Below, piece after piece: positions 107 through 13,184 of a DNA stretch of 64,000 nucleotides (the first letter of the stretch is position 1; every line of letters begins with the position of its first letter). Source of the DNA: Sneathiella sp. (GTDB lineage Bacteria > Pseudomonadota > Alphaproteobacteria > Sneathiellales > Sneathiellaceae); contig NZ_JARGOQ010000010.1 in NCBI RefSeq assembly GCF_029233945.1, positions 5,943 to 69,942 of the forward strand. The letters are read 5' to 3'. The translations under genes and the position numbers were made by a program. The notes below the pieces were generated by a model. That model was given only the letters and a program-made list of their open reading frames with translations. It was not told the origin of the DNA and ran no database searches.

Positions 107-134
107 TTGCAGTTGTCATGCTATCGATTACAAT
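107..134 (+). promoter_or_regulatory. Putative enuR promoter (leaderless transcript)
   Basis: TTGCAG (107-112) and TACAAT (129-134) are separated by 16 bases and resemble sigma-70 -35 and -10 boxes. Transcription would begin near base 141, which is the A of the ATG preferred for enuR, so the message would have no leader. The match is by eye only. The alternative TTG start at 75 has a good AAGGAG at 65-70 but lies upstream of this promoter. Confidence 0.35.
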
Positions 135-147
135 TGTTGCATGACAA
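113..147. promoter_or_regulatory. Inverted repeat, likely EnuR operator at its own promoter
   Basis: TTGTCATGC (113-121) is repeated exactly in inverse as GCATGACAA (139-147), with the palindrome ACAATTGT (130-137) inside the spacer. The element covers the putative -10 box and the ATG of enuR, as expected for autorepression. Parts of it (TTGnCATGC and ATTACAATTG) recur at 1555-1573 upstream of uehA. Binding by EnuR is inferred. Confidence 0.5.
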
Positions 148-1532
148 AATGGATCCCCAAGCGTGAAACACTCGAACGCCCCCTCCATATTGGTATTGCA
201 AATCTCCTCAGGGACGCCATCTCTGACGGGCAGCTGGCTGTTGGGGAACGTCTCCCGCCGCACAGAACACTGGCCGATATTTTACGCGTCAGTGTTCATA
301 CCGTCAGCAAGGCTTATGATGAGCTCACGCGCGCCGGGCTAATTGGTGGTCAGGTCGGGCGCGGGACATTCGTTCTGGATCCCGCACGAACCTCCCGCCA
401 ACCATTTCTGATGGAGCGAACCGACCAAGGGCTGATTGATCTTTCAATTGCCCGGCCGCTGTATGACAATATTCATGTCAACAAGATGCAATCCGCACTG
501 GCGGAGATGTCCGAGGGGATAAACCCGGATACTTATCTGGCCTGCCGACCCAACATCGGATTAGAAGAACATCGTCATGCAGGCGTGAAGTGGCTGTCGA
601 AGTGCGGGCTGGAAACCTCAGCAGGAAATGTTGTCATGACCAATGGCGTCTGCCACGGCATGGCGACGGCTCTCTCCTCGGTTGCCCGTCATGGCGATGT
701 TATCGTGACAGACACCATTGCCCATCATCTTATTATCTCTCTTTGCGCCTATCTCGGCCTGCGCCTGCAGGGTCTCCGGATGGATGAGGAAGGAGTATTG
801 CCGGATGCATTTGAAGAAGCCTGCAAACAACAGGATGTGAAAGTTTTCTTTACGGTTCCGACCCTTGCCAGCCCGTCCGTCAGTTTAATGTCGATGGAAA
901 GGCGAGAGAGACTCATTCGAATCGCACGACAATATGATATTCTGATTATCGAAGATGATGTTCTCGGCCCCCTGCCAGAAATCCGCCCAACTCCGATATC
1001 TGCGCTCGCCCCCGAACGGTCAATTTATCTTACCTCTTTTACAAAATGCGTAATGCCGGGCCTTAGAACAGGATATCTGGTTGCGCCAGAAGCCTTGCTG
1101 CCCTCGATTATTGGAAGGCTGATTGTGTTCAGCTGGATGGCCACTCCCTTTATCTCGGAACTCGCAAGTCGCTGGATTGAGGATGGCACGGCAGACGAAC
1201 TGGTGCTTTGGCAGCGCGAGAAACTTGCCGAACGTCATGAAATCGCGGCTGAAGAACTGACCGAATTTACCTGGGTCGGCCATCCGGCTGCCCTGCATTT
1301 CTGGCTTCCGCTACCTGAGCAATGGACATCACATAACATGGTGGAGCATGCGAAAGCTCTCGGTGTTGCCGTGGCCCCACCGCAACCTTTCATGACGGCG
1401 CAGTGCGAACCCTTGAATGCGGTCCGGATCGCCGTTGGTGGCGTAGCCCGTACGGAAAGGTTTCAACAAGGGCTCGGCCTTATCAAAAGCCTGTTGAAAC
1501 GATCTCCCGAACCCTTACCACAACTTCTATAA
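141..1532 (+). CDS. enuR: MocR/GntR-family transcriptional regulator of ectoine catabolism (EnuR)
   Basis: This 463-residue protein has an N-terminal GntR-type winged helix (about residues 10-80; the motif VSVHTVSKAYDEL is typical) and a C-terminal class I aminotransferase-like domain that binds PLP. The Schiff-base lysine lies in SFTKCVMPG and is residue 302 when translation starts at ATG 141. I recall the same number for Ruegeria pomeroyi EnuR, and that favours this start over the TTG at 75. EnuR proteins repress ectoine import and catabolic genes and respond to ectoine breakdown products through PLP. It heads the uehABC-usp-eut cluster in the Ruegeria order. The operator-like repeat overlapping its start suggests autoregulation. 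Confidence 0.88.
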   Translation: MTKWIPKRETLERPLHIGIANLLRDAISDGQLAVGERLPPHRTLADILRVSVHTVSKAYDELTRAGLIGGQVGRGTFVLDPARTSRQPFLMERTDQGLIDLSIARPLYDNIHVNKMQSALAEMSEGINPDTYLACRPNIGLEEHRHAGVKWLSKCGLETSAGNVVMTNGVCHGMATALSSVARHGDVIVTDTIAHHLIISLCAYLGLRLQGLRMDEEGVLPDAFEEACKQQDVKVFFTVPTLASPSVSLMSMERRERLIRIARQYDILIIEDDVLGPLPEIRPTPISALAPERSIYLTSFTKCVMPGLRTGYLVAPEALLPSIIGRLIVFSWMATPFISELASRWIEDGTADELVLWQREKLAERHEIAAEELTEFTWVGHPAALHFWLPLPEQWTSHNMVEHAKALGVAVAPPQPFMTAQCEPLNAVRIAVGGVARTERFQQGLGLIKSLLKRSPEPLPQLL

Positions 1533-1573
1533 TTGTACTGCGTCAATATAATATTTGACATGCATTACAATTG
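1531..1573. promoter_or_regulatory. Likely EnuR operator/promoter region upstream of uehA
   Basis: AATTGTA (1531-1537) and TACAATT (1566-1572) form an inverted repeat. TTGACATGC (1555-1563) followed by ATTACAATTG (1564-1573) repeats the elements found over the enuR start. TTGACA is also a perfect -35 hexamer, though no convincing -10 box follows at normal spacing. The uehA start is 200 bases downstream, leaving a long leader in which I see no other signal. Confidence 0.45.
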
Positions 1574-1773
1574 GAGGCCAGACTTTCGGTTGAAAAATTC
1601 AGGCGGGTTGTTTTTCGCCAAATTCTGACTCCAGCAGTATTTTCGGGCATGCATTCACAGGAAGAGCCAGTATTGCTTTTACGGACCGTGAGGTGTTTCA
1701 GGATTATGGGGCCTTCGTGCCAGGAAGATAAACGCGTCAATAATTACCAAAATCCAACAGGAGGTAGATACCA

Positions 1774-2790
1774 ATGACTTTGAAGAAACGCGGCTTGATT
1801 AGCGGCTTAACAGCAGTGGCGACAATTGCAGCCGGACTGAGCGCTGCAAGTGCGGATACCTGGAAATATGCATTTGAGGAATCCTTGACCGAAGTCCAGG
1901 GGGTTTATGCTACAAAATTCAAGGAAGAGATTGAGAAAAACTCTGATCACGAAATCCAGCTGTTTCCTTATGGCACATTAGGCGAGTCAGCCGATCTGAT
2001 GGAGCAGACACAGGCAGGCATCCTGCAATTCGTTGACCAGTCTCCCGGATTTACTGGCGCGCTGATCCCCGAAGCACAGGTCTTTTTTGTCCCCTACCTG
2101 CTGCCGACAGATCAGGAGCATCTGGCCCGCTTCTTCCGGGAAAGCAAGGCTATTAACAAGGATTTCAAAGGGCTTTACGCGAACCAAGGGCTTGAACTCC
2201 TTCAAATGTTCCCTGAAGGCGAAGTAGCCATGACGACCAAAGAGCCCGTCAACAGCTGCGCGGATCTGGATGAAGTTAAATTCCGCGTCATGACGAACCC
2301 TCTTCTGGTAGAAGCTTATAAAGCGTTCGGCGCGACACCAACGCCTTTGCCTTGGGGAGAAGTGTACGGAAGCCTGCAAACCAATATCATTCAGGGCCAG
2401 GAAAACCCGACTTTCTATCTGTATTCAACCAAGCTGTATGAAGTGACTGATTACATCACCTATACAGGCCACAGCAATTTTACGACTGCGGTTATGGCCA
2501 ACAAGGAATTCTTTGATGGTCTTGGCGATGCCGACAAGAAGATTGTTCAGGATGCCGCCAAAGCAGCTTATGAACATATTGTTGTTTATCAGGAAGGTCT
2601 GGCTCAGGAGGAACTGAAAAAAATCAAGGAATCCAAGCCAAGCATGACAGTTACCGTCCTCTCCGAGGAGCAGCGCGCCTGCTTTAAGGAAGCAGCAGGA
2701 GACGTTGAGGCCAAATTCATCGAAATGACCGGTGATAGCGGCACGGCAATCCTTAAACAGTTCAAGGCAGATCTTGCGGCCACAAAATAG
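1774..2790 (+). CDS. uehA: TRAP transporter substrate-binding protein, ectoine/hydroxyectoine (UehA)
   Basis: This is a 338-residue DctP-family periplasmic binding protein. It has a Sec signal peptide (about residues 1-27, ending SAASA before DTW), the DctP core, the conserved arginine in FRVMTNPL and the QGQENP segment that normally shape the ligand pocket. AGGAGG at 1760 precedes the ATG. Ectoine specificity is inferred from the surrounding cluster (enuR before it, eut/doe genes after it), which matches UehABC of Ruegeria. It delivers the compatible solute to UehBC in the inner membrane. Confidence 0.88.
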   Translation: MTLKKRGLISGLTAVATIAAGLSAASADTWKYAFEESLTEVQGVYATKFKEEIEKNSDHEIQLFPYGTLGESADLMEQTQAGILQFVDQSPGFTGALIPEAQVFFVPYLLPTDQEHLARFFRESKAINKDFKGLYANQGLELLQMFPEGEVAMTTKEPVNSCADLDEVKFRVMTNPLLVEAYKAFGATPTPLPWGEVYGSLQTNIIQGQENPTFYLYSTKLYEVTDYITYTGHSNFTTAVMANKEFFDGLGDADKKIVQDAAKAAYEHIVVYQEGLAQEELKKIKESKPSMTVTVLSEEQRACFKEAAGDVEAKFIEMTGDSGTAILKQFKADLAATK

Positions 2791-2802
2791 GGCTGTACAT
2801 CC

Positions 2803-2844
2803 AAAAATACCGGGCGATCCAAAATGAAATTGCCCGGTATTTTT
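2803..2844 (+). terminator. Hairpin between uehA and uehB (attenuator or mRNA-stabilising)
   Basis: AAAAATACCGGGC (2803-2815) pairs perfectly with GCCCGGTATTTTT (2832-2844) around a 16-base loop, and the second arm ends in a T run. It has the form of an intrinsic terminator but sits inside the operon. It probably allows partial read-through, or protects the uehA message, so that binding protein exceeds permease. A similar hairpin occurs in the other two TRAP operons here. Confidence 0.7.
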
Positions 2845-2885
2845 CCCTCTAGAATTTTGGATTTGGACGATACAGGGGATGCCTC

Positions 2886-3452
2886 GTGACAGATAAAGCT
2901 CACAAATCAATGCTACCCGGTTTCCTGGGTCAGATCGATACTCTGATCGGTCGGGTGGAAGCCGTCATCCTCGCAGCCGGTGTATTATTGATGGGCCTGA
3001 ATACAGTGGGCAATGTCATTGGCCGTTTCATCTTCCAATACAGCTTCTTCTTCACCGAAGAGATAAACAGAATTCTTATTATCATGATCACCTTTGCGGG
3101 CATCGGTTATGCCGCGCGGCACGGGCGGCATATCAGGATGTCAGCGATCTATGACGCCCTGCCCATTCGAACGCGCAAAGTCATGATGATCCTCATTACC
3201 ATAATCACCGCGTTGACGATGTTTGCCCTGTGTTACTTCTCAATCGGCTATATCATGAAAGTTGCAAACTCCGGACGTGTACTACCTGCCCTTCAGATAC
3301 CGGTTTATCTGATTTTTCTTTGGGTACCCGTCGGTTTCGCCGTCACCGGAATCCAGTATGCGCTCACAACGGTCAAAAATATTCTCGAAAAAGACGTCTA
3401 CCTCTCCACCAGCATGCTGGAAGGTTATGACGACGACGAGATCGAAGTTTAG
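2886..3452 (+). CDS. uehB: TRAP transporter small permease subunit (UehB, DctQ family)
   Basis: This is a 188-residue integral membrane protein of the DctQ family with four hydrophobic segments (about 25-45, 60-80, 100-125 and 140-165) and the typical FFTEEINR stretch between helices 1 and 2. It begins with GTG; the ATG seven bases upstream is out of frame and closes at once. It partners with the large subunit encoded 9 bases downstream to form the sodium-coupled permease. Confidence 0.85.
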
Positions 3453-3461
3453 GAGGGTCGG

Positions 3462-4745
3462 ATGGCAATCAAAATAACAGCAATCATGATCGTCCTGCTA
3501 CTCGCGGGCCTGCCCATGATGATCCCGCTCCTGCTCGGCGCTTTTTATGGCTTTTATGAGCTTTTCAATGGCTTCTCGAAAATGGACTTCATGGTCCAGC
3601 AGATGCTCGCTGGCATACGCCCCGCGTCATTAATAGCAGTCCCGATGTTCATTCTCGCCGCTGAAATCATGACCCGGGGCCAGTCCGCGAACCGTCTTAT
3701 TGATATGGTGATGAAGTTTATCGGCCATGTCAGGGGCGGTCTCGCCGTCAGCACGGCCGCGGCCTGTACTCTTTTCGGTGCGGTATCCGGTTCCACCCAG
3801 GCCACTGTCGTCGCCGTGGGTTCGCCATTGCGCCCTCGTATGCTGAAGGCGGGATACAAGGATTCATTTATCCTCGCCCTGATCATCAATGCCAGTGATA
3901 TTGCCTTCCTCATTCCGCCCAGCATTGGCATGATTATTTATGGCGTAATTTCCAGCACGTCCATTTCAGAATTGTTCATCGCCGGTGTTGGCCCCGGCCT
4001 TCTGTTAATGGTCCTCTTTTCCGCTTACAGTATGATCTATGCGACCATTAACAAGGTGCCGACTGAACCGAAAGCAACCTGGTCCGAACGGTTGGGCGCC
4101 GCCCGAAGAGCTATCTGGCCACTCGGTTTCCCGGTCATAATTATTGGCGGTATTTATGGTGGCATTTTTAGCCCGACAGAAGCGGCAGCGGCCTGTGTAT
4201 TCTATGCCCTGATTCTGGAAATTGTCATTTTCAAGTCCCTGAAACTCACAGATATTTACCAGATCGCCAAATCCACAGGACTGATTACGGCCGTCGTCTT
4301 TATCCTGGTTGGCGCCGGAGCCGCCTTTTCATGGGTCATCTCCTTCGCCCAGATCCCGCAGGAAATTCTGGGGGCGATTGGTATTACCGAGATGGGCCCG
4401 AAAGGGGTTCTGGGCGTCATTTCTGTCTCCTTCTTCATCGGATGTATGTTTGTTGATCCGATCGTCGTGATCTTGGTTCTCGTGCCCATTTTTGCGCCGG
4501 TGGTCGAGGCCGTCGCTTTGGATCCGGTTCTGGTGGGAACGATTATCACGCTGCAGGTTGCCATTGGCTCGGCTACGCCGCCCTTTGGATGTGATATTTT
4601 CACGGCAATTGCCGTCTTTAAAAGGCCATATGCAGATGTTGTAAGGGGGATTTTCCCGTTTACGATCATTCTTGCGGCTGTGTCGGTCGCTCTCATCTTT
4701 TTCCCGCAGATTGCCCTGTTTGCCCGCGATCTGGCCTTTCGTTGA
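3462..4745 (+). CDS. uehC: TRAP transporter large permease subunit (UehC, DctM family)
   Basis: This 427-residue, roughly 12-helix DctM protein carries the family hallmarks AGPRP-like turns, IPPSIGMIIYGV and SPTEAAA. GGAGGG precedes the ATG. Together with UehB it forms the inner-membrane channel that takes ectoine or hydroxyectoine from UehA using a sodium gradient. Length and topology are normal for DctM. Confidence 0.88.
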   Translation: MAIKITAIMIVLLLAGLPMMIPLLLGAFYGFYELFNGFSKMDFMVQQMLAGIRPASLIAVPMFILAAEIMTRGQSANRLIDMVMKFIGHVRGGLAVSTAAACTLFGAVSGSTQATVVAVGSPLRPRMLKAGYKDSFILALIINASDIAFLIPPSIGMIIYGVISSTSISELFIAGVGPGLLLMVLFSAYSMIYATINKVPTEPKATWSERLGAARRAIWPLGFPVIIIGGIYGGIFSPTEAAAACVFYALILEIVIFKSLKLTDIYQIAKSTGLITAVVFILVGAGAAFSWVISFAQIPQEILGAIGITEMGPKGVLGVISVSFFIGCMFVDPIVVILVLVPIFAPVVEAVALDPVLVGTIITLQVAIGSATPPFGCDIFTAIAVFKRPYADVVRGIFPFTIILAAVSVALIFFPQIALFARDLAFR

Positions 4746-4762
4746 TGGGCAGGAGATAATAT

Positions 4763-5200
4763 ATGTTTAAAAAAATCCTGATCCCGATGGATGGTTCTGA
4801 GCCCTCCCAGAAAGCCCTGAAAACAGCTGTCAAAATGCAAGAGTCTTTTGACTGCGAACTCCTCATCCTGACTGTTTTCAGACATCATAGTCTTTTGGAA
4901 ACATCCATATCGATGGTCCGTTCGGAGGAACCCGAGGTTATGGATGATATTCTGCGGAAGCATGCATCCGATGTAGCGGAAAGTGCAAAAAAAGCGGCGC
5001 TGGATATGGGCGCCAAAGCAGTTCGGGCTTTTGTAAAGAACGGCCCGCCCGCCAGAACAATTGTCAATTTTTCAAAGGACAAGGATGTGGATCTCATTGT
5101 TCTGGGCAGCCGAGGACACGGAGATTTGGAAGGTTTCCTCCTCGGAAGCGTCTCCCACAAGGTAACAAGCCTCGCAAACTGTCCAGTGATGGTCGTTTAA
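4763..5200 (+). CDS. usp: Universal stress protein (UspA family), TRAP-associated
   Basis: This is a 145-residue UspA-fold protein with the ATP-binding signature GSRGHGDLEGFLLGSVS near its C-terminus. The start has AGGAGA upstream. In ectoine TRAP operons (TeaD of Halomonas, usp of Ruegeria) a Usp follows the permease genes and is known to bind ATP and modulate transport. It sits in exactly that position, 17 bases after uehC. A regulatory role for this copy is inferred. Confidence 0.85.
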   Translation: MFKKILIPMDGSEPSQKALKTAVKMQESFDCELLILTVFRHHSLLETSISMVRSEEPEVMDDILRKHASDVAESAKKAALDMGAKAVRAFVKNGPPARTIVNFSKDKDVDLIVLGSRGHGDLEGFLLGSVSHKVTSLANCPVMVV

Positions 5201-5259
5201 ACGCCTCGTCCGACTTGTAATATCGACCTCATCATATTTTTCAGGTGGGATAAAATTAA

Positions 5260-5433
5260 ATGGAATCTTCAACTCAATATTCCCGGATCTTTTCATCCGA
5301 GTTGGATGCATCTCCCGTCTCTAAAAGAACTGGCCTGATCGCTCTTGCTACTGATCACATACCAGAGCCGGATTTTACGCAGAAAAATTCCCGGTTATGG
5401 CCGACTGTTTCAAATTTTATTTACCCAGCATGA
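5260..5433 (+). pseudogene. eutA: Remnant of eutA (N-terminal end only)
   Basis: A 57-codon frame starts at ATG 5260 behind AGGTGGG and reads SKRTGLIALATDHIPEPDF near codons 21-39. This resembles the start of EutA, a member of the Asp/Glu racemase / arylmalonate decarboxylase superfamily (R-x-GLI-x-LATDH-type beginning). After about codon 40 the similarity stops and the frame closes at 5433, right on the Shine-Dalgarno of eutB. EutA is normally about 250 residues and lies at this point in the Ruegeria cluster (usp-eutA-eutB). I read this as a deletion of most of eutA. A real small protein cannot be excluded. Identification is from memory of the family. Confidence 0.6.
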
Positions 5434-5444
5434 AGGACCACGAG

Positions 5445-6458
5445 ATGGGTTCAATAAGTTTGGCAGCTATTGAAAAGGCGCGTCTCAGGATAGCTCCCTT
5501 TATCCGGCAAACGCCGATGGTATCCTCCCCGTCCCTGTCGGAACGGACGGGCGGAGATATTCATCTGAAGCTTGAGCAGCTCCAGATTACGGGAAGTTTC
5601 AAGTTGCGCGGCGCAACGAATGCTGTGTTGTCCTTGTCCGAGGATCAAAAGGCAAACGGTGTTGTCGGTGTCTCAACCGGCAACCACGGGCGCGGACTTG
5701 CCTATGCTGCCCATAACGCCGGTGTGAAATGCATCATCTGCATGTCTGAACTCGTGCCACAAAACAAAGTGGACGGCATCCGCTCGCATGGCGCAGAAGT
5801 CCGTATTATTGGGCGTTCGCAAGACGATGCGCAGGTGGAGGTGGATCGGCTGGTTACTGAAGAAGGGATGACCATGCTGCCGCCCTTTGACCATGAAGAT
5901 ATTATTGCGGGACAGGGAACGCTCGGTCTGGAACTGCAGGAACAGCTTCCGGATGTTGAAACCGTATTGGTGCCCTTGTCCGGTGGGGGCCTGATTTCTG
6001 GTGTTGCCCTTGCCCTGAAAGCCAAAAGCCCCGCGATCAGGATCATCGGTGTCTCTATGGGCCATGGTGCCACCATGCATGAAAGTCAACGGGCTGGCAA
6101 ACCCATTCTGGTAGAAGAATGCCCCACTCTCGCAGATTCACTGGGCGGTGGGATTGGTCTTAACAATCGCTACACATTCCAGATGGTGAAGGAACTTGTC
6201 GATGACATCGTGCTGGTAACAGAAACCGAAATTGCCGAGGCCATCCGCCATGCCTATTGGCAGGAAAAGCTGGTGATCGAAGGGTCCGGCAGCGTCGGCA
6301 TTGCCGCCTTGCTTGCCGGAAAGATTGAGACCCCTGGCACCTGCGTTAGCCTCATCAGTGGATGCAACATTGACATGAAATTGCATAAACGGCTTATCGA
6401 CGGAGAGAATGTCGACGTCGGTCGGGAACAGTTGGAAGCGGAAGCCCGACATGCCTGA
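5445..6458 (+). CDS. eutB: EutB, threonine-dehydratase-like PLP enzyme of hydroxyectoine use
   Basis: This 337-residue fold-type II PLP enzyme has its lysine in GSFKLRGATNA (about residue 51) and the phosphate-binding loop LSGGGLISG (about 180). The start was placed at ATG 5445 because AAGGA at 5433-5437 is well spaced, while the ATGs at 5397 and 5430 have no such site. EutB is implicated with EutA and EutC in converting hydroxyectoine to a form that enters ectoine breakdown; the exact step is not firmly settled. Its stop overlaps the eutC start by 8 bases. With eutA lost, its present role is uncertain. Ordinary serine/threonine dehydratase is the alternative. Confidence 0.82.
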   Translation: MGSISLAAIEKARLRIAPFIRQTPMVSSPSLSERTGGDIHLKLEQLQITGSFKLRGATNAVLSLSEDQKANGVVGVSTGNHGRGLAYAAHNAGVKCIICMSELVPQNKVDGIRSHGAEVRIIGRSQDDAQVEVDRLVTEEGMTMLPPFDHEDIIAGQGTLGLELQEQLPDVETVLVPLSGGGLISGVALALKAKSPAIRIIGVSMGHGATMHESQRAGKPILVEECPTLADSLGGGIGLNNRYTFQMVKELVDDIVLVTETEIAEAIRHAYWQEKLVIEGSGSVGIAALLAGKIETPGTCVSLISGCNIDMKLHKRLIDGENVDVGREQLEAEARHA

Positions 6459-7443
6459 AATTACCATTATGAGCGAAAAAGAACTAAGGCAGGTCGTTTC
6501 GCTGGACAAGGCTGCCGTTGACTGCATCGAAAATGCATTCCGGCTTCTCGCAACGAGGGATGTGGTAATGCCGCCCATCCTCAGCTTTCACGTCCCGGAT
6601 CATAACGGGGAAGTGGACGTCAAAACGGCTTATGTCCCGGGAATTGGCTCCTTCGCAATTAAAATGAGTCCCGGATTCTTTGATAATCCCAAACTGGGCC
6701 TGCCAAGCCTCAATGGATTAATGGTTCTTTTTTCCTCAAAGACGGGCATCGTCGAAGGCGTCCTGCTGGACAACGGGTATCTGACGGATGTGCGGACCGC
6801 GGCAGCTGGTGCAGTCGCTGCCAAGTGGTTATCCCGAAAGGATGCGAATGTCACTGGAATAATTGGCACTGGGACACAGGCCAAACTCCAGCTAAAAGCC
6901 CTCACCCTTGTTCGTGACCTCAAAAAAGCCGTTGTCTGGGGCCGGAATGGCGTGAAGGCACAGCAATATGCCAAAGAATGCAAAGAAGAACTCGGGATCG
7001 AAATCGAGGTCGCCAAAACCATTGATGCCCTGATGGACGAGAGCGATATCGTGGTGACGACAACGCCATCCCAAACCGCCCTGATTTCAGCGGCACAACT
7101 TCGACCCGGCCAACATATAACTGCCATGGGAACGGATGCCGACTACAAAACCGAGCTCGCGCCAGACGTTATCCCCACAGCCGATCTATATGTCTGCGAC
7201 AACCTTGCCCAATGCCGCAAGCAGGGTGAACTGCGCGCTGCCATCGCTGCTGGAACTGTAGGCGAATCTACTGATTTCCCGGAACTCGGCGGTATTATTG
7301 CAGGGCACCACAACGGCCGCCAGTCGGATGAAAGTATCACGATCTGCGATCTGACCGGTACAGGCGTTCAGGATACCGCCATTGCCACCTTAGCCCGAGA
7401 GCTAGCGCAGGACGCAGACATCGGCACCATTTTCAACAGCTAG
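6451..7443 (+). CDS. eutC: EutC, ornithine-cyclodeaminase/mu-crystallin family enzyme
   Basis: This 330-residue protein has the ornithine cyclodeaminase fold, with a nucleotide-binding GIIGTGTQAKLQ segment near residue 137 and the conserved LTDVRTAAAGA stretch before it. The start is ATG 6451, overlapping the end of eutB, which suggests translational coupling. EutC acts with EutB in hydroxyectoine metabolism in the Ruegeria-type pathway; the reaction is not well defined. Confidence 0.83.
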   Translation: MPEITIMSEKELRQVVSLDKAAVDCIENAFRLLATRDVVMPPILSFHVPDHNGEVDVKTAYVPGIGSFAIKMSPGFFDNPKLGLPSLNGLMVLFSSKTGIVEGVLLDNGYLTDVRTAAAGAVAAKWLSRKDANVTGIIGTGTQAKLQLKALTLVRDLKKAVVWGRNGVKAQQYAKECKEELGIEIEVAKTIDALMDESDIVVTTTPSQTALISAAQLRPGQHITAMGTDADYKTELAPDVIPTADLYVCDNLAQCRKQGELRAAIAAGTVGESTDFPELGGIIAGHHNGRQSDESITICDLTGTGVQDTAIATLARELAQDADIGTIFNS

Positions 7444-7460
7444 CAGGTTTGGAGAAAACT

Positions 7461-8642
7461 ATGTCTGGACTTGATCTACCCTTCGCTCTTTCAGAATATC
7501 AGCAGCGCATTGCAAAAGCGCGAGCTTCAATGGCCGAACATGGAATTGACCTCCTTATCGTCACCGACCCGTCCAACATGGCCTGGCTCACGGGCTATGA
7601 CGGCTGGTCCTTTTATGTCCATCAATGCGTTATCCTGTCGATGGACGGCGATCCACTTTGGTTTGGCCGCAAGCAAGACGCGAATGGTGCCGTGCGAACT
7701 ACTTTCCTGAGTGAGAACAATATCCTCTTTTATACGGATAACTATGTTCAATCCATAGTACGTCACCCTATGGATTATCTGAGCACAGTTTTGACTGATC
7801 GCGGTTTTGGAAATGTCGTTATCGGCGTCGAAATGGACAACTATTATTTTTCCGCCGCCGCCTATATGTCGTTGGTCAATCATCTTCCCAATGCCGAGTT
7901 CAAGAACACCACGGCATTGGTGAATTGGTGCCGCGCAGTAAAGTCGGAGCAGGAGTTAATCTATATGCGGCGAGCGGGCCGCATTGTCGAGGAGATGCAC
8001 AAATGCATTTTCGAAAAAATTGAACCCGGCCTTCCAAAAAATGAACTCGTGGCAGAAATTTATAATACAGGCATTCGCGGGGCGGATGGCTTCGGCGGAG
8101 ATTATCCGGCAATTGTTCCGCTCCTCCCGTCAGGCGCAGATGCGGCGGCGCCACACCTCACATGGGATGACAAACCCATGAAAGCGGGCGAAGGCACATT
8201 CTTCGAGATTGCGGGTTGTTATCGGCGCTATCATGCACCGCTATCCAGAACTATTTTTCTTGGAAAGCCATCGCAAACATTTATCGATGCGGATAAAGCG
8301 GTTCAGGAAGGCATGGAAGCCGGGCTGGAAAAAGCGCAGGCCGGTAATACATGTGAAGATATCGCGAGTGCCTTTTTTGCTGTGTTAAAAAAATACGGCA
8401 TTATCAAGGACAATCGGACCGGTTACCCCATCGGCTTGAGCTACCCACCGGATTGGGGCGAACGGACGATGAGTTTACGGCTTGGGGACAAAACAGTTCT
8501 CGAACCCGGCATGACCTTTCATTTCATGACAGGCCTCTGGATGGATGACTGGGGCATGGAAACAACGGAAAGCATTATCATTACTGATGGAGCGCCCGAT
8601 TTCCTTGCGTCCGTCCCCCGCCAACTCATGATCAAGGATTAA
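7461..8642 (+). CDS. doeA: Ectoine hydrolase DoeA/EutD (M24 peptidase family)
   Basis: This 393-residue cytoplasmic enzyme of the creatinase/prolidase fold has an N-terminal creatinase-like domain (about 15-145) and a C-terminal pita-bread domain (about 155-385). DoeA opens the ectoine ring to N-acetyl-diaminobutyrate. GGAG at 7451-7454 supports ATG 7461 rather than the upstream TTG. Its place between eutC and the deacetylase gene is the standard order and separates it from general Xaa-Pro peptidases. Confidence 0.87.
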   Translation: MSGLDLPFALSEYQQRIAKARASMAEHGIDLLIVTDPSNMAWLTGYDGWSFYVHQCVILSMDGDPLWFGRKQDANGAVRTTFLSENNILFYTDNYVQSIVRHPMDYLSTVLTDRGFGNVVIGVEMDNYYFSAAAYMSLVNHLPNAEFKNTTALVNWCRAVKSEQELIYMRRAGRIVEEMHKCIFEKIEPGLPKNELVAEIYNTGIRGADGFGGDYPAIVPLLPSGADAAAPHLTWDDKPMKAGEGTFFEIAGCYRRYHAPLSRTIFLGKPSQTFIDADKAVQEGMEAGLEKAQAGNTCEDIASAFFAVLKKYGIIKDNRTGYPIGLSYPPDWGERTMSLRLGDKTVLEPGMTFHFMTGLWMDDWGMETTESIIITDGAPDFLASVPRQLMIKD

Positions 8643-8646
8643 GCCT

Positions 8647-9636
8647 ATGAGAGCCAATCCTATTTCCGCCACAGTCAACTATGATGAAGATGGTGTTCAA
8701 CATGGTTTCCTGAAGCTACCGTATTCCCATGACGGATCTGCCTGGGGATCGATCATGATCCCCATTACGGTTGCCCGAAATGGTGACGGGCCGACGGTCC
8801 TGTTGACCGGCGGCAATCACGGCGATGAATATGAAGGCCCGGTGGCATTATTCGACCTTGCCAGAACGATAAAATATGAGGATATCAGCGGCCGTGTCAT
8901 CATTGTGCCCGGCATGAATTATCCGGCGTTCCGGGCGGCGCGGCGGACATCACCCATTGACAGCGGAAATATGAACCGGACGTTCCCCGGCAATCCCGCC
9001 GGGACGGTGACCGAAAAAATAGCAGATTATTTCCAGCGCACCCTGTTGCCCCTTGCCGATTATGTGCTGGATATCCATTCGGGCGGGAAAACGCTGAAAT
9101 TTGTGCCTTTCTGTGCGGTCCATTTTCAGGACGACAAGGTGCAGGAAGAAAAATGCGTTGCCGCCATGCGGGCCTTCAATGCGCCTTTTTCAATGATGCT
9201 TCTGGAAGTGGATTCAACCGGCATGTTTGACACGGCCGCAGAGGAAATGGGAAAGATATTTATTTCCACTGAACTCGGCGGCGGCGGATCAACGACGGTG
9301 CGGAGTGTGGCCATCGCCAAAAGGGGCGTGAAGAATTTTCTGCACCATGCCGGCGTTCTGGCCGGGGAACCGGAAGGCGGCGAGTCGGTTGCCCTGTACA
9401 TGCCGGATCACCGCTGTTTTATCTCCAGCGAAACCACAGGGCTGCTCGAACTCTGTGTGGATTTGGGCGACGTCGTGATGGAGGGGCAGCTTCTGGCCCG
9501 CGTCTATGACATGGAGCGCACGGGCAGCGATCCCACAGAGTATATCAGCCCGATGGAGGGTATCTTTGCCGCCCGCCACTTTCCCGGCCTGATCGGCATG
9601 GGAGATATTGTGGGCGTCGTTGCCGTTAAAGCATAG
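8647..9636 (+). CDS. doeB: N-alpha-acetyl-diaminobutyrate deacetylase DoeB/EutE
   Basis: This 329-residue zinc hydrolase belongs to the succinylglutamate desuccinylase/aspartoacylase family. Metal-ligand motifs are visible as GGNHGDEYEGP (about residues 56-66) and DIHSGGKT (about 141-148). DoeB removes the acetyl group from N-alpha-acetyl-L-2,4-diaminobutyrate, giving diaminobutyrate and acetate. AAGGA overlaps the end of doeA, 4 bases upstream of the ATG, so the two are coupled. Confidence 0.87.
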   Translation: MRANPISATVNYDEDGVQHGFLKLPYSHDGSAWGSIMIPITVARNGDGPTVLLTGGNHGDEYEGPVALFDLARTIKYEDISGRVIIVPGMNYPAFRAARRTSPIDSGNMNRTFPGNPAGTVTEKIADYFQRTLLPLADYVLDIHSGGKTLKFVPFCAVHFQDDKVQEEKCVAAMRAFNAPFSMMLLEVDSTGMFDTAAEEMGKIFISTELGGGGSTTVRSVAIAKRGVKNFLHHAGVLAGEPEGGESVALYMPDHRCFISSETTGLLELCVDLGDVVMEGQLLARVYDMERTGSDPTEYISPMEGIFAARHFPGLIGMGDIVGVVAVKA

Positions 9637-9654
9637 AAGCGGTATATCTAGAGT

Positions 9655-10128
9655 ATGATCAAACTTGATGACCGAGACCTGAAAATCCTGGCTGTCCTAC
9701 AACAGGATGGCCGCATCCCCAAAAACCAGCTTGCACAGAGAGTGCATCTCTCTCCAACGGCTTGCTGGGAACGATTAAAACGGCTGGAGGAGGCTGGTGT
9801 TATCGAGGGTTATGGAGCTCGGCTTTCACTCCCCAGCCTAGGGTCCCCGGCGATAATTTTTATGCAGGTGGAACTTGCGAGCCATCGCGCCGAAGATTTT
9901 GAGCGCTTTGAAAACGCTGTTGGCGCAATTGACGAAATCACGGAATGCTGGGCCGTCGGCGGCGGCGTAGACTATTTCCTGAAGCTGGTCTGCAAAGGGG
10001 TTGATGCCTATCAGCGAAAAGTTGATGAAATGCTGGCGGCAGATATCGGTTTACGGCGCTACTACACATATGTGGTGACCAAGCCTGTAAAGAATACAGA
10101 CCAGATCCCCGCTTCCGCCTTCAGCTAA
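9655..10128 (+). CDS. doeX: AsnC/Lrp-family regulator of ectoine catabolism (DoeX)
   Basis: This is a 157-residue Lrp-type protein with an N-terminal helix-turn-helix (about 8-60; LAQRVHLSPTACWERLKRLEE) and a C-terminal RAM ligand-binding domain. Such a regulator (AsnC in Ruegeria, DoeX in Halomonas) accompanies the ectoine genes and is thought to act as activator or feedback sensor. No strong Shine-Dalgarno precedes the ATG. A possible target is the inverted repeat just downstream, before the aldehyde dehydrogenase gene. Confidence 0.85.
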   Translation: MIKLDDRDLKILAVLQQDGRIPKNQLAQRVHLSPTACWERLKRLEEAGVIEGYGARLSLPSLGSPAIIFMQVELASHRAEDFERFENAVGAIDEITECWAVGGGVDYFLKLVCKGVDAYQRKVDEMLAADIGLRRYYTYVVTKPVKNTDQIPASAFS

Positions 10129-10196
10129 GTTTCATCGGGCAATTCTCAATGTGAACGGAACGATCCGATAAATCCTCTTTCTTTGTCGGGTTTCCA

Positions 10197-10259
10197 AGAA
10201 TTCTTCTCTGAATTCTCCCGCTACTATAAACGCACTCTCTAGCCGATCTTTCCTATACT
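10197..10259 (+). promoter_or_regulatory. Inverted repeat and possible internal promoter before the dehydrogenase gene
   Basis: AGAATTC (10197-10203) and GAATTCT (10210-10216) form a perfect inverted repeat with a 6-base spacer. TATACT at 10254-10259 could be a -10 box. The 160-base gap is the largest within the 3' half of the eut operon, so the last two genes may have their own promoter, possibly controlled by the AsnC-type regulator. This is inference from position only. Confidence 0.3.
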
Positions 10260-10288
10260 TCCTTCAGAGTTTTTGGCGGAGATAAGTG

Positions 10289-11779
10289 ATGCGCGAAGGA
10301 AAGAAAAACCTATCCCGGATACCGGAGCTGGATCTGCTTAAAGATCCCAGATTGTTCAAGGAATTTGCTTACTGCGGTGGTGAGTGGCAGTCTGCAAAGT
10401 CCGGTCACATTATTGAGGTGACTAATCCGGCAGATAACGCCTGGATGGGGAATATCCCGTCACTCAGTAAAGAAGAAAGCAAGGCGGCGGTTGCCGCGGC
10501 CCATCAGGCATTTGCGGGCTGGGCGTCCCTTCTCCCTCAAGAAAGAGCATCGATTTTAAAAAACTGGTTCCAACTGATCAATGACACCAAGGAAGATTTG
10601 GCTCTGATCATGACGCTGGAGCAAGGCAAACCCATATCGGAAAGCCGGGGCGAAATCGATTACGGCCTGTCTTTTATCGAATTCTTTGCCGAAGAGGCCA
10701 AGCGCACGGACATTCTAGGCGTAACGTCACATCTCCATAATGCGGAGGTTGAAGTGTGGCTGGAACCGGTTGGCGTTGCGGCCCTCGTAACGCCATGGAA
10801 TTTTCCGAATGCCATGATAACCCGGAAAGCGGCGGCCGCCCTCGCGGTCGGATGCCCTGTTATCGTGCATCCGTCCAAGGAAACGCCCTTTTCGGCGCTC
10901 GCGCTCGCCGAACTTGCTGAGCGCGCAGGTTTCCCCACTGGTGTTTTCAATGTTATCACTGGCGATCCTGTCGAAATTGTCGGGGAATGGACGAAAGATG
11001 TCCGCGTTCGGGCACTTTCCTTCACGGGATCAACAGAAATCGGTCGTCTCCTTTATGCGCAATCGGCCCCGACCATCAAGCGCCTGAGTTTGGAGCTTGG
11101 CGGACATGCGCCCTTTATCGTATTTGCGGATGCGGATCTGGACAAGGCCGTTGAAGAAGGTATCGGTGCCAAGTTCGCCACATCCGGCCAGGATTGCCTG
11201 GGTGCCAATCGCTTTTTTGTGGAGCGATCCATCTATGACGATTTCTGCCAGAAGTTTGCAAAAAAGGCAGCCGCTTTAACAATTGGGCGTGGGTTGGATG
11301 ATCGGGACATCGGCCCTCTCATGAATAAAAATGCCGTTACCAAACAGAAAGAACATGTTGAAGATGCCCTCAAAGAGGGAGCAACGCTTTTGACCGGCGG
11401 AAAGAGCCATGCACTGGGGCCGTTGTTTTTTGAACCGACTGTTCTGAAGGACGTGCCGGCGTCTGCCAAAATTATGCATGACGAAACATTCGGACCCGTC
11501 GCCGCCATTGCTCCTTTCGATTCCGAAGACGAGGTCATTCACCGTGCGAATGACACAGAATACGGGCTGATGGCCTATGTTCACACCAAGAATCCGTCTC
11601 GTATCTATCGCCTGAGCCGGGCGCTGGAATTTGGGATGATCGGCGTCAATCGCACGAAAGTCACTGGCGCCCCGATCCCCTTCGGCGGGATGAAGCAGTC
11701 CGGGCTCGGGCGCGAAGGCTCCCGCCACGGGATCGAGGCGTTTTCAAATATCAAATATGTCTGTCGGGACTGGGCTTAA
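10289..11779 (+). CDS. doeC: NAD(P)-dependent semialdehyde dehydrogenase (Ssd/DoeC)
   Basis: This 496-residue aldehyde dehydrogenase is closest in look to the succinate-semialdehyde dehydrogenase group. The catalytic glutamate is in LELGGHAPF (about residue 270) and the catalytic cysteine in SGQDCLGANR (about 304). In ectoine degradation it oxidises aspartate-semialdehyde to aspartate. The ATG at 10289 has GGCGGAG upstream and is preferred to the overlapping GTG at 10286. It is followed by the partner aminotransferase gene after 28 bases. Confidence 0.85.
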   Translation: MREGKKNLSRIPELDLLKDPRLFKEFAYCGGEWQSAKSGHIIEVTNPADNAWMGNIPSLSKEESKAAVAAAHQAFAGWASLLPQERASILKNWFQLINDTKEDLALIMTLEQGKPISESRGEIDYGLSFIEFFAEEAKRTDILGVTSHLHNAEVEVWLEPVGVAALVTPWNFPNAMITRKAAAALAVGCPVIVHPSKETPFSALALAELAERAGFPTGVFNVITGDPVEIVGEWTKDVRVRALSFTGSTEIGRLLYAQSAPTIKRLSLELGGHAPFIVFADADLDKAVEEGIGAKFATSGQDCLGANRFFVERSIYDDFCQKFAKKAAALTIGRGLDDRDIGPLMNKNAVTKQKEHVEDALKEGATLLTGGKSHALGPLFFEPTVLKDVPASAKIMHDETFGPVAAIAPFDSEDEVIHRANDTEYGLMAYVHTKNPSRIYRLSRALEFGMIGVNRTKVTGAPIPFGGMKQSGLGREGSRHGIEAFSNIKYVCRDWA

Positions 11780-11807
11780 TCCAGTCACTTTTAATCAGGA
11801 GAGTATA

Positions 11808-13184
11808 ATGCTTACAAATGATCAACTCAGCCAATGGGACCGTGAGAATTTCTTTCATCCCTCCACGCATCTTGCGCAGTTCGCCCGCGGCGAAATGTCC
11901 AACCGCATTATAACGGGTGGGTCTGGCGTTCACATTGAAGATCGGGATGGCATCCGACTTCTGGACGCCTTTGCTGGCCTTTATTGCGTCAATGTCGGCT
12001 ATGGCCGCACCGAAATCGCCGATGCCATCGCGGCACAGGCGAAAGAACTTGCCTATTACCATTCCTATGTCGGGCACGGCACCGAAGCTTCCATCACCTT
12101 GTCGAAAATGATTATCGACCGGGCTCCGAAGAATATGAGCAAGGTCTATTACGGTCTTTCCGGTTCGGACGCCAACGAGACGAACATCAAGCTGGTCTGG
12201 TATTACAACAACGTCCTCGGCCGTCCCGAGAAGAAAAAGATCATCTCCCGCTGGCGCGGTTATCACGGGTCAGGCCTGATGACGGGTTCCCTGACAGGAC
12301 TGGAGCTCTTCCATAAAAAATTCGACCTTCCGCTGACGCAGGTTATCCACACGGATGCGCCCTATTACTACCGCCGCGAAGACCTGAATCTCAGCGAGGA
12401 AGAATTCTCCCGCCAATGCGCGGAAAATCTGGATGCCCTTATCCAGAAAGAAGGACCCGATACCGTCGCCGCCTTTATCGGGGAGCCTGTACTTGGAACG
12501 GGTGGCCTTGTTCCTCCTCCAGCCGGATATTGGGACGCAATTCAGGCCGTTCTTAAAAAATATGACATTCTGCTGATCGCGGACGAAGTGGTCACCGGGT
12601 TCGGGCGCCTTGGCTCTATGTTCGGCTCCGATCACTACGGCATTGAGGCGGATATCATTACGTCAGCCAAAGGCCTCACCTCCGCCTATGCGCCGCTGTC
12701 GGCGTCTATTGTGTCGAAGAAAGTCTGGAAGGTACTTGAGCAGGGCACAGACGAATTCGGTGCCATCGGCCATGGCTGGACCTATTCTGCTCATCCCGTC
12801 TGCGCGGCCGCAGGCGTTGCCAATCTGAAACTAATCGATAGCATGGGGCTCGTCGCGAATTCGGGTGACGTCGGTCCTTACTTGAAGAAAGCTATGACCG
12901 ACGCGATAGGCAATCACCCGAATGTCGGGGATGTCCGTGGAGAGGGCCTGATGATGGCCGTTGAACTGGTCGAGAACAAGGAAACGAGAACCTTTCTCGA
13001 TCCTTCCTTACTGACAGGTGCAAAAGTGGCCGCCGCCCTTCTGAAGAGAGGTGTTATCGCGCGCGCTATGCCTCAGGGGGATATCCTCGGCTTCGCACCG
13101 CCACTATGCCTGACGAAAGGAGAAGCCGACACCATCGTCGGCGCTATGGCCGAAGCCGTCGGCGAAGTTTTCGATAATGCCTAA
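11808..13184 (+). CDS. doeD: Class III aminotransferase, diaminobutyrate transaminase (Atf/DoeD)
   Basis: This 458-residue PLP enzyme of the omega-aminotransferase family has IADEVVTGFGR (PLP aspartate) and the Schiff-base lysine in TSAKGLTSAYAPL (about residue 288). In this pathway it converts L-2,4-diaminobutyrate to aspartate-semialdehyde, the substrate of the preceding dehydrogenase. CAGGAGAG sets the start at ATG 11808, although the frame is open further upstream into doeC. It ends the ectoine operon. Confidence 0.85.
   Translation: MLTNDQLSQWDRENFFHPSTHLAQFARGEMSNRIITGGSGVHIEDRDGIRLLDAFAGLYCVNVGYGRTEIADAIAAQAKELAYYHSYVGHGTEASITLSKMIIDRAPKNMSKVYYGLSGSDANETNIKLVWYYNNVLGRPEKKKIISRWRGYHGSGLMTGSLTGLELFHKKFDLPLTQVIHTDAPYYYRREDLNLSEEEFSRQCAENLDALIQKEGPDTVAAFIGEPVLGTGGLVPPPAGYWDAIQAVLKKYDILLIADEVVTGFGRLGSMFGSDHYGIEADIITSAKGLTSAYAPLSASIVSKKVWKVLEQGTDEFGAIGHGWTYSAHPVCAAAGVANLKLIDSMGLVANSGDVGPYLKKAMTDAIGNHPNVGDVRGEGLMMAVELVENKETRTFLDPSLLTGAKVAAALLKRGVIARAMPQGDILGFAPPLCLTKGEADTIVGAMAEAVGEVFDNA

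Follow-up and report, generated by a model that had tools for sequence, protein, structure and literature searches.

A eutA remnant in the ectoine operon of a Sneathiella strain and a second, unlinked EutA homologue that may stand in for it

The sequence analyzed here (the window) is a stretch of 64,000 nt from the genome of a Sneathiella sp., a draft assembly of 3.63 Mb in 114 contigs that is 99.7% complete. Positions 108-13184 hold an ectoine/hydroxyectoine operon of the Ruegeria pomeroyi type, in the order enuR, uehABC, usp, the slot for eutA, eutBCDE, asnC, ssd, and atf (Table 1). The uehA product matches the TRAP_S1/DctP models, and uehA, uehB, and uehC keep their order in the sister species at 88-99% identity. 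The window strain is labeled G000; its relatives include Sneathiella sp. HT1-7 (G003), MAG SRR3401491_bin.77 (G009), S. litorea DP05 (G019; eut locus L046), S. sedimenti CAU 1612 (G022; L045), and MAG IN21 (G015; L047). A search for literature on Sneathiella and ectoine returned nothing.

Table 1. Features of the ectoine/hydroxyectoine operon and of the eutA slot, in window coordinates
Feature	Position	Strand	Basis
enuR (EhuR/EnuR, MocR-type regulator)	108..1532	+	NF052286, 628 bits (cut-off 480)
uehABC, TRAP transporter genes	1774..4745	+	uehA 1774-2790, uehB 2886-3452, uehC 3462-4745
usp, universal stress protein gene	4763..5200	+	upstream neighbor of the eutA slot
Former eutA ribosome-binding site, AGGTGGG	5243..5249	+	sequence; conserved in sister species by alignment
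57-codon frame, eutA relic left by an internal deletion with frameshift	5260..5433	+	TIGR02990, E 2.1e-5; alignment with intact eutA of G019, G022, and G015
Surviving eutA 5' part, about 40 codons, in frame	5260..5379	+	alignment of 40 codons with G019 EutA, 29/40 residues identical
ATTCCCGG, 8-bp repeat, left copy	5279..5286	+	recombination with the right copy yields exactly the 108-bp-larger deletion of G003 and G009
Surviving eutA 3' end, RKIPGYGRLFQI, out of frame, stop mutated	5380..5417	+	34/38 bases identical to G019
ATTCCCGG, 8-bp repeat, right copy	5387..5394	+	alignment with G003 and G009
eutB, intact	5445..6458	+	TIGR02991, 534 bits (cut-off 413.35)
eutC, intact	6451..7443	+	TIGR02992, 498.7 bits (cut-off 471.65)
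eutD/doeA, intact	7461-8642	+	TIGR02993, 743 bits
eutE/doeB, intact	8647-9636	+	TIGR02994, 550 bits
asnC, ssd, atf (remainder of the operon)	9655..13184	+	asnC 9655-10128, ssd 10286-11779, atf from about 11805; order conserved in sister species

The original prediction held that a 57-codon frame between usp and eutB begins like EutA and marks a deletion in place that spared the expression signals of eutB. The frame is present, and its likeness to the EutA N terminus is confirmed: residues 15-41 match positions 1-27 of the EutA model TIGR02990, at 24 bits where the cut-off is 318 bits over 239 positions. It matches no other NCBIfam family, a Pfam search of the 57 residues gave zero matches, and a whole-genome search with TIGR02990 recovers the same relic (E 4e-4). 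Comparison with sister species bears out the deletion as well. An intact eutA (759 bp and a stop codon) occupies the same slot in S. litorea, S. sedimenti, and MAG IN21, and alignment with these three genes gives a net deletion of 602 bp (3x200+2); from eutA start to eutB start there are 185 bp in the window versus 787 bp in S. litorea and S. sedimenti. Because 602 is not divisible by three, the frame shifts, which is why similarity had appeared to vanish after the EutA-like start. The in-frame likeness does end near codon 40, but the 3' end of the gene is still there in a different frame, matching the final codons and stop region of the S. litorea gene (R-KIPGYGRLFQI), with the original stop TGA now TTA. 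The two cysteine motifs of the superfamily (xCT and SCT) both lie within the deleted 602 bp and are absent from the frame.

What remains of the gene has also changed at residues that are invariant in the three intact proteins (TSELDFA to IPEPDFT, and I to T in KRIG), and its own dN/dS is uninformative, with 27 changes over 40 codons. An artifact of assembly or sequencing might be suspected in a draft of 114 contigs, but we give this practically no credence, because two independent sister-species assemblies show the same gene missing at the same site with another breakpoint, and because the substitutions and the lost stop codon go beyond what a collapse would make. We are nearly certain that the eutA of the window strain is a pseudogene, the relic of a deletion in place.

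The stop codon of the relic frame (TGA, 5431-5433) overlaps an ATG at 5430 (ATGA), which is an alternative in-frame start for eutB. In HT1-7 and MAG SRR3401491_bin.77, the ATG equivalent to that at 5445 is now ATA (L044 and L052, near 7001), so that eutB must start there at the ATG overlapping the relic stop. The eutB of the MAG also ends two codons early. From this layout, translational coupling of eutB via the relic frame is plausible, and the 57-residue frame would be at most a leader for eutB. A larger role, as a functional small protein or as a leader cistron under selection for coupling translation to eutB, is very unlikely in our judgment. It would account for the retained ribosome site and start, the overlapping stop, and the unchanged start, frame, and end of the relic in the two relatives that need the overlapping ATG. 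Against it, the peptide is conserved in neither length nor sequence (57 versus 21 codons) and has lost EutA-conserved residues, which indicates no peptide function, and the overlapping ATG is also found in S. sedimenti and MAG IN21, where eutA is kept.

HT1-7 and MAG SRR3401491_bin.77 share the loss of eutA, and their relic has eroded to 21 codons with the same start and end. Compared with the window, they have lost a further 108 bp, between the two copies of ATTCCCGG. In nucleotide trees of the locus and of rpoB, these two genomes and the window strain form one clade (support 99-100) that is sister to S. litorea and S. sedimenti, both with intact eutA; an rpoB protein tree had support too weak to be used and was replaced by the nucleotide trees. 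Within the clade, the locus tree joins HT1-7 to the MAG (94.7/91), and the rpoB tree, in which the MAG sequence is partial, weakly prefers the window strain with HT1-7. On the simplest history, the common ancestor underwent a single deletion, which recombination at the repeat later extended in HT1-7 and the MAG; independent deletions are an alternative. Genomes G001 and G017 are likewise without eutA, and their eut locus is rearranged or differently inherited, with the GYGRLFQ tail of eutA retained in G001. As they form a separate lineage, eutA has been lost at least twice in the genus.

Other arrangements of these genes also occur in Sneathiella. In G024 (L093 8662-12883), uehABC-usp-eutA has no eutB downstream, and eutB and eutC of a divergent type lie on another contig, which is the mirror image of the window. 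In a second subclade (L090, L091, and L092, from G012, G010, and G006, respectively), eutB is divergent from eutE-eutC-asnC-ssd-atf, and there is no eutA.

The absence of eutA is accompanied by a change in the selection acting on its neighbors. In a two-ratio codon model (six species and nine genes, with a single tree per gene and between-species recombination at the locus ignored), dN/dS was about twice as high in the eutA-less clade as elsewhere for eutB (0.153 versus 0.073, p 3e-4) and about 1.7 times as high for eutC (0.145 versus 0.086, p 0.009). The eutB result passes a Bonferroni correction for the nine genes; that of eutC alone fails. No significant rise was seen in this model for eutD (p 0.58), eutE (p 0.08), uehA, uehB, uehC, or enuR, and the value for usp was lower in the eutA-less clade (p 0.02). 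When G001 and G017, the second eutA-less group, were added as a third class, the estimates were 0.064/0.143/0.121 for eutB (p 4e-5) and 0.078/0.143/0.141 for eutC (p 7e-4), so that the second lineage shifts in the same direction for both genes; neither eutD (0.072/0.077/0.082, p 0.8) nor eutE was significant. The effect is carried by no single branch, and the tip of the window strain alone is not significant in eutB or eutC. These tests indicate that the genes whose constraint shifts once EutA goes are the two thought to act with it. Separately, synonymous distances jump along the operon (1.18 in eutB and 0.34 in eutD between S. litorea and S. sedimenti; 2.5 in eutD and 0.77 in eutE between the window strain and MAG IN21), which points to between-species recombination of operon segments involving eutD and eutE (window 7461-9636; L045, L046, and L047).

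A dN/dS near 0.15 still represents strong purifying selection on eutB and eutC. It is possible that hydroxyectoine use has been lost, or nearly so, and that the two genes are slowly decaying, kept only by the recency of the loss or by their place in an operon required for ectoine. The roughly twofold rise in both genes in both eutA-less groups, with none in eutD, could be read in this way, and some organisms have been suggested to use ectoine and not hydroxyectoine (PMC5924519). We nevertheless consider such a loss unlikely, as both genes are full length and score over their family cut-offs, their dN/dS remains far below 1 across within-clade synonymous distances of about 0.4-0.6, and over an equal time eutA itself shrank to remnants.

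Three options had been proposed for intact EutB and EutC without EutA, namely loss of hydroxyectoine use, a substitute for EutA elsewhere, or an independent role for the pair. The substitute is now the best evidenced, with the other two as rivals. A search of the remaining genome found a single other EutA homologue, here EutA2, which is a full-length protein of 251 aa encoded on contig C108 (15490-16242, minus strand), unlinked to the eut operon. It has both cysteine motifs (IYGCTSGT and LFISCTAIR) and aligns with positions 8-238 of the 239 in TIGR02990 at 239.7 bits, short of the cut-off. The gene closes an island (L003 8564-18830) that also contains lrp, ehuABCD, and genes for a diaminopropionate ammonia-lyase-like PLP enzyme, a BisC/TorA-type S/N-oxide reductase, and an M24 hydrolase; its EhuB, EhuC, and EhuD score over NCBIfam cut-offs. 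One might speculate from this content that the island encodes a pathway of the ectoine type acting on a compound built around a 2,3-diaminopropionate core. We know of no characterized pathway for such a compound. Counting against EutA2 as a substitute are its score below the cut-off and its relationship to proteins of M24/ammonia-lyase islands as well as to genes of the eutA slot. On a Photobacterium plasmid (L121), genes for an ammonia-lyase, an EutA2-like protein, an M20 aminoacylase, a TRAP transporter, and an M24 protein occur together.

The distribution of EutA2 is the complement of that of eutA. In the rpoB clade that contains the window strain, it is found in G000, G003, G009, G001, and G017, all of them eutA-less, and in none of the five eutA-bearing genomes (G015, G019, G022, G023, and G002), a mutual exclusion with p 0.008 if relatedness is ignored, the independent events being few (two losses at least). 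In HT1-7, the ehuABCD, ammonia-lyase, reductase, and hydrolase genes of the island are gone, and eutA2 is intact and conserved (L079 6431-7434); no EhuB over the cut-off was found in that genome. A weak remnant of the M24 C terminus lies directly upstream of this lone eutA2. Pairwise dN/dS values for EutA2 are 0.06-0.09. A comparison of conserved 8-10-mers found no EnuR-type operator common to the eut operon and either the C108 island or the sequence preceding the solitary eutA2 of HT1-7, a result that counts against substitution. Another homologue, EutA3 (150-178 bits; G019, G013, G006, G020, and G008), was considered as a substitute and rejected: it is absent from the window strain, sits apart on a long branch, has different motifs, and in S. 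litorea is found together with intact eutA.

The nearest relatives of EutA2 outside the genus occupy the eutA slot itself. They are encoded directly upstream of eutB in G234 (65% identity) and G289 (54%), which belong to two other alphaproteobacterial families, and the order in G234 is enuR-uehABC-usp-EutA2-eutBCDE-asnC. The tree groups both with Sneathiella EutA2 (UFBoot 98/SH-aLRT 85), and all share the cysteine motif GCTSGT, where relatives from M24 islands have ACT. Slot position, grouping, and motif are the best evidence that EutA2 partners EutB as an EutA-type protein rather than being just a distant racemase.

Across 385 genomes of the class, 26 carry eutB (E <= 1e-105), and an EutA-family gene adjoins it in only three (G065, G234, and G289). 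An EutA-family homologue somewhere in the genome (E <= 1e-40) is found in 23 of these 26, compared with 60 of the 359 without eutB, counts that are uncorrected for relatedness and genome size. Judged from these matches, unlinked EutA is common among eutB genomes. Alternatively, EutB and EutC may need no EutA, if their substrate is the native stereoisomer or some other hydroxylated compound, and EutA2 may have an unrelated job in its own island. The congeners G010 and G012, whose genomes are complete or near-complete, have eutB and eutC and no EutA homologue at all, which suggests that EutA may be dispensable and counts against a supply in trans by EutA2. Halomonadaceae and several Burkholderiaceae with the catabolic genes also have no eutA (PMC13188858). 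However, G010 and G012 have a more divergent kind of eutB (53-55% identity), the eutA slot of G234 and G289 is filled by EutA2 homologues, EutA2 alone survives in HT1-7, and the class-wide counts, relatedness uncorrected, run the other way. A role for EutB and EutC that is independent of EutA therefore seems improbable to us.

EutA has been predicted to be a racemase that acts before EutB (PMC5924519), and hydroxyectoine use in R. pomeroyi requires EutABC, the exact steps of EutA, EutB, and EutC being uncertain (PMC8739950). Taken together, we favor, with a probability of roughly 55% for the statement as a whole, the reading that eutA is a pseudogene, that EutA2 supplies its step in trans, and that EutB and EutC still serve hydroxyectoine use. 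An ancestor shared with HT1-7 would have lost the central 602 bp of eutA, both catalytic-type cysteines included, with a frameshift, and the retained ribosome site and open frame into the eutB start would keep eutB translated. The EutA step is thought to invert the carbon that bears the hydroxyl group, after which EutB would dehydrate the hydroxyectoine-derived intermediate and EutC would reduce it; this step would most likely come from EutA2 of the unlinked ehuABCD island. EutB and EutC would remain in hydroxyectoine use under a constraint that is weaker or altered. To our knowledge, racemase-type activity has not been measured for any EutA.

We also advance a broader proposal, tentatively and at slightly less than even odds: EutA2 may represent a second EutA branch that the present family model misses and that replaces EutA either in the slot next to eutB or from an unlinked island. 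Many eutA-less clusters may then be served by an unlinked EutA below the cut-off, and the constraint on EutB and EutC may change when their partner is swapped or lost. The reactions of EutA, EutB, and EutC are unestablished even though all are needed in R. pomeroyi, and the many clusters without eutA are a puzzle. Sneathiella offers a natural series among close relatives, from intact eutA through a partial relic to near-complete erasure, and a second EutA is present where the first was lost, so that a few strains and one gene, eutA2, would allow a direct test of the need for EutA. It is also a warning that eutA-less calls from the present model may be wrong.

The operon matches the R. pomeroyi type in gene order and content and in the type of regulator and transporter, from enuR through atf. 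It differs in that only the two ends of eutA are left, and an EutA-type gene is found away from the operon, within an ehuABCD island. EutA2 resembles the EutA of TIGR02990, a member of the maleate isomerase/arylmalonate decarboxylase superfamily, in aligning over almost the whole model and in having both cysteine motifs, and the solved structures nearest to it are those of arylmalonate decarboxylases and maleate isomerases; unlike that EutA, EutA2 shares a branch of its own with the slot genes of G234 and G289, all scoring 220-243 bits, under the 318-bit cut-off. The eutA-less clusters of Halomonadaceae and Burkholderiaceae (PMC13188858 and PMC5924519) are alike in having eutB and eutC with no eutA in the cluster, and some Paraburkholderia likewise have a eutA homologue within separate ehuABCD clusters (PMC13188858). 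In contrast to those clusters, the relic in Sneathiella can still be read, sister species with the intact gene exist, and the evolutionary effect on eutB and eutC can be measured.
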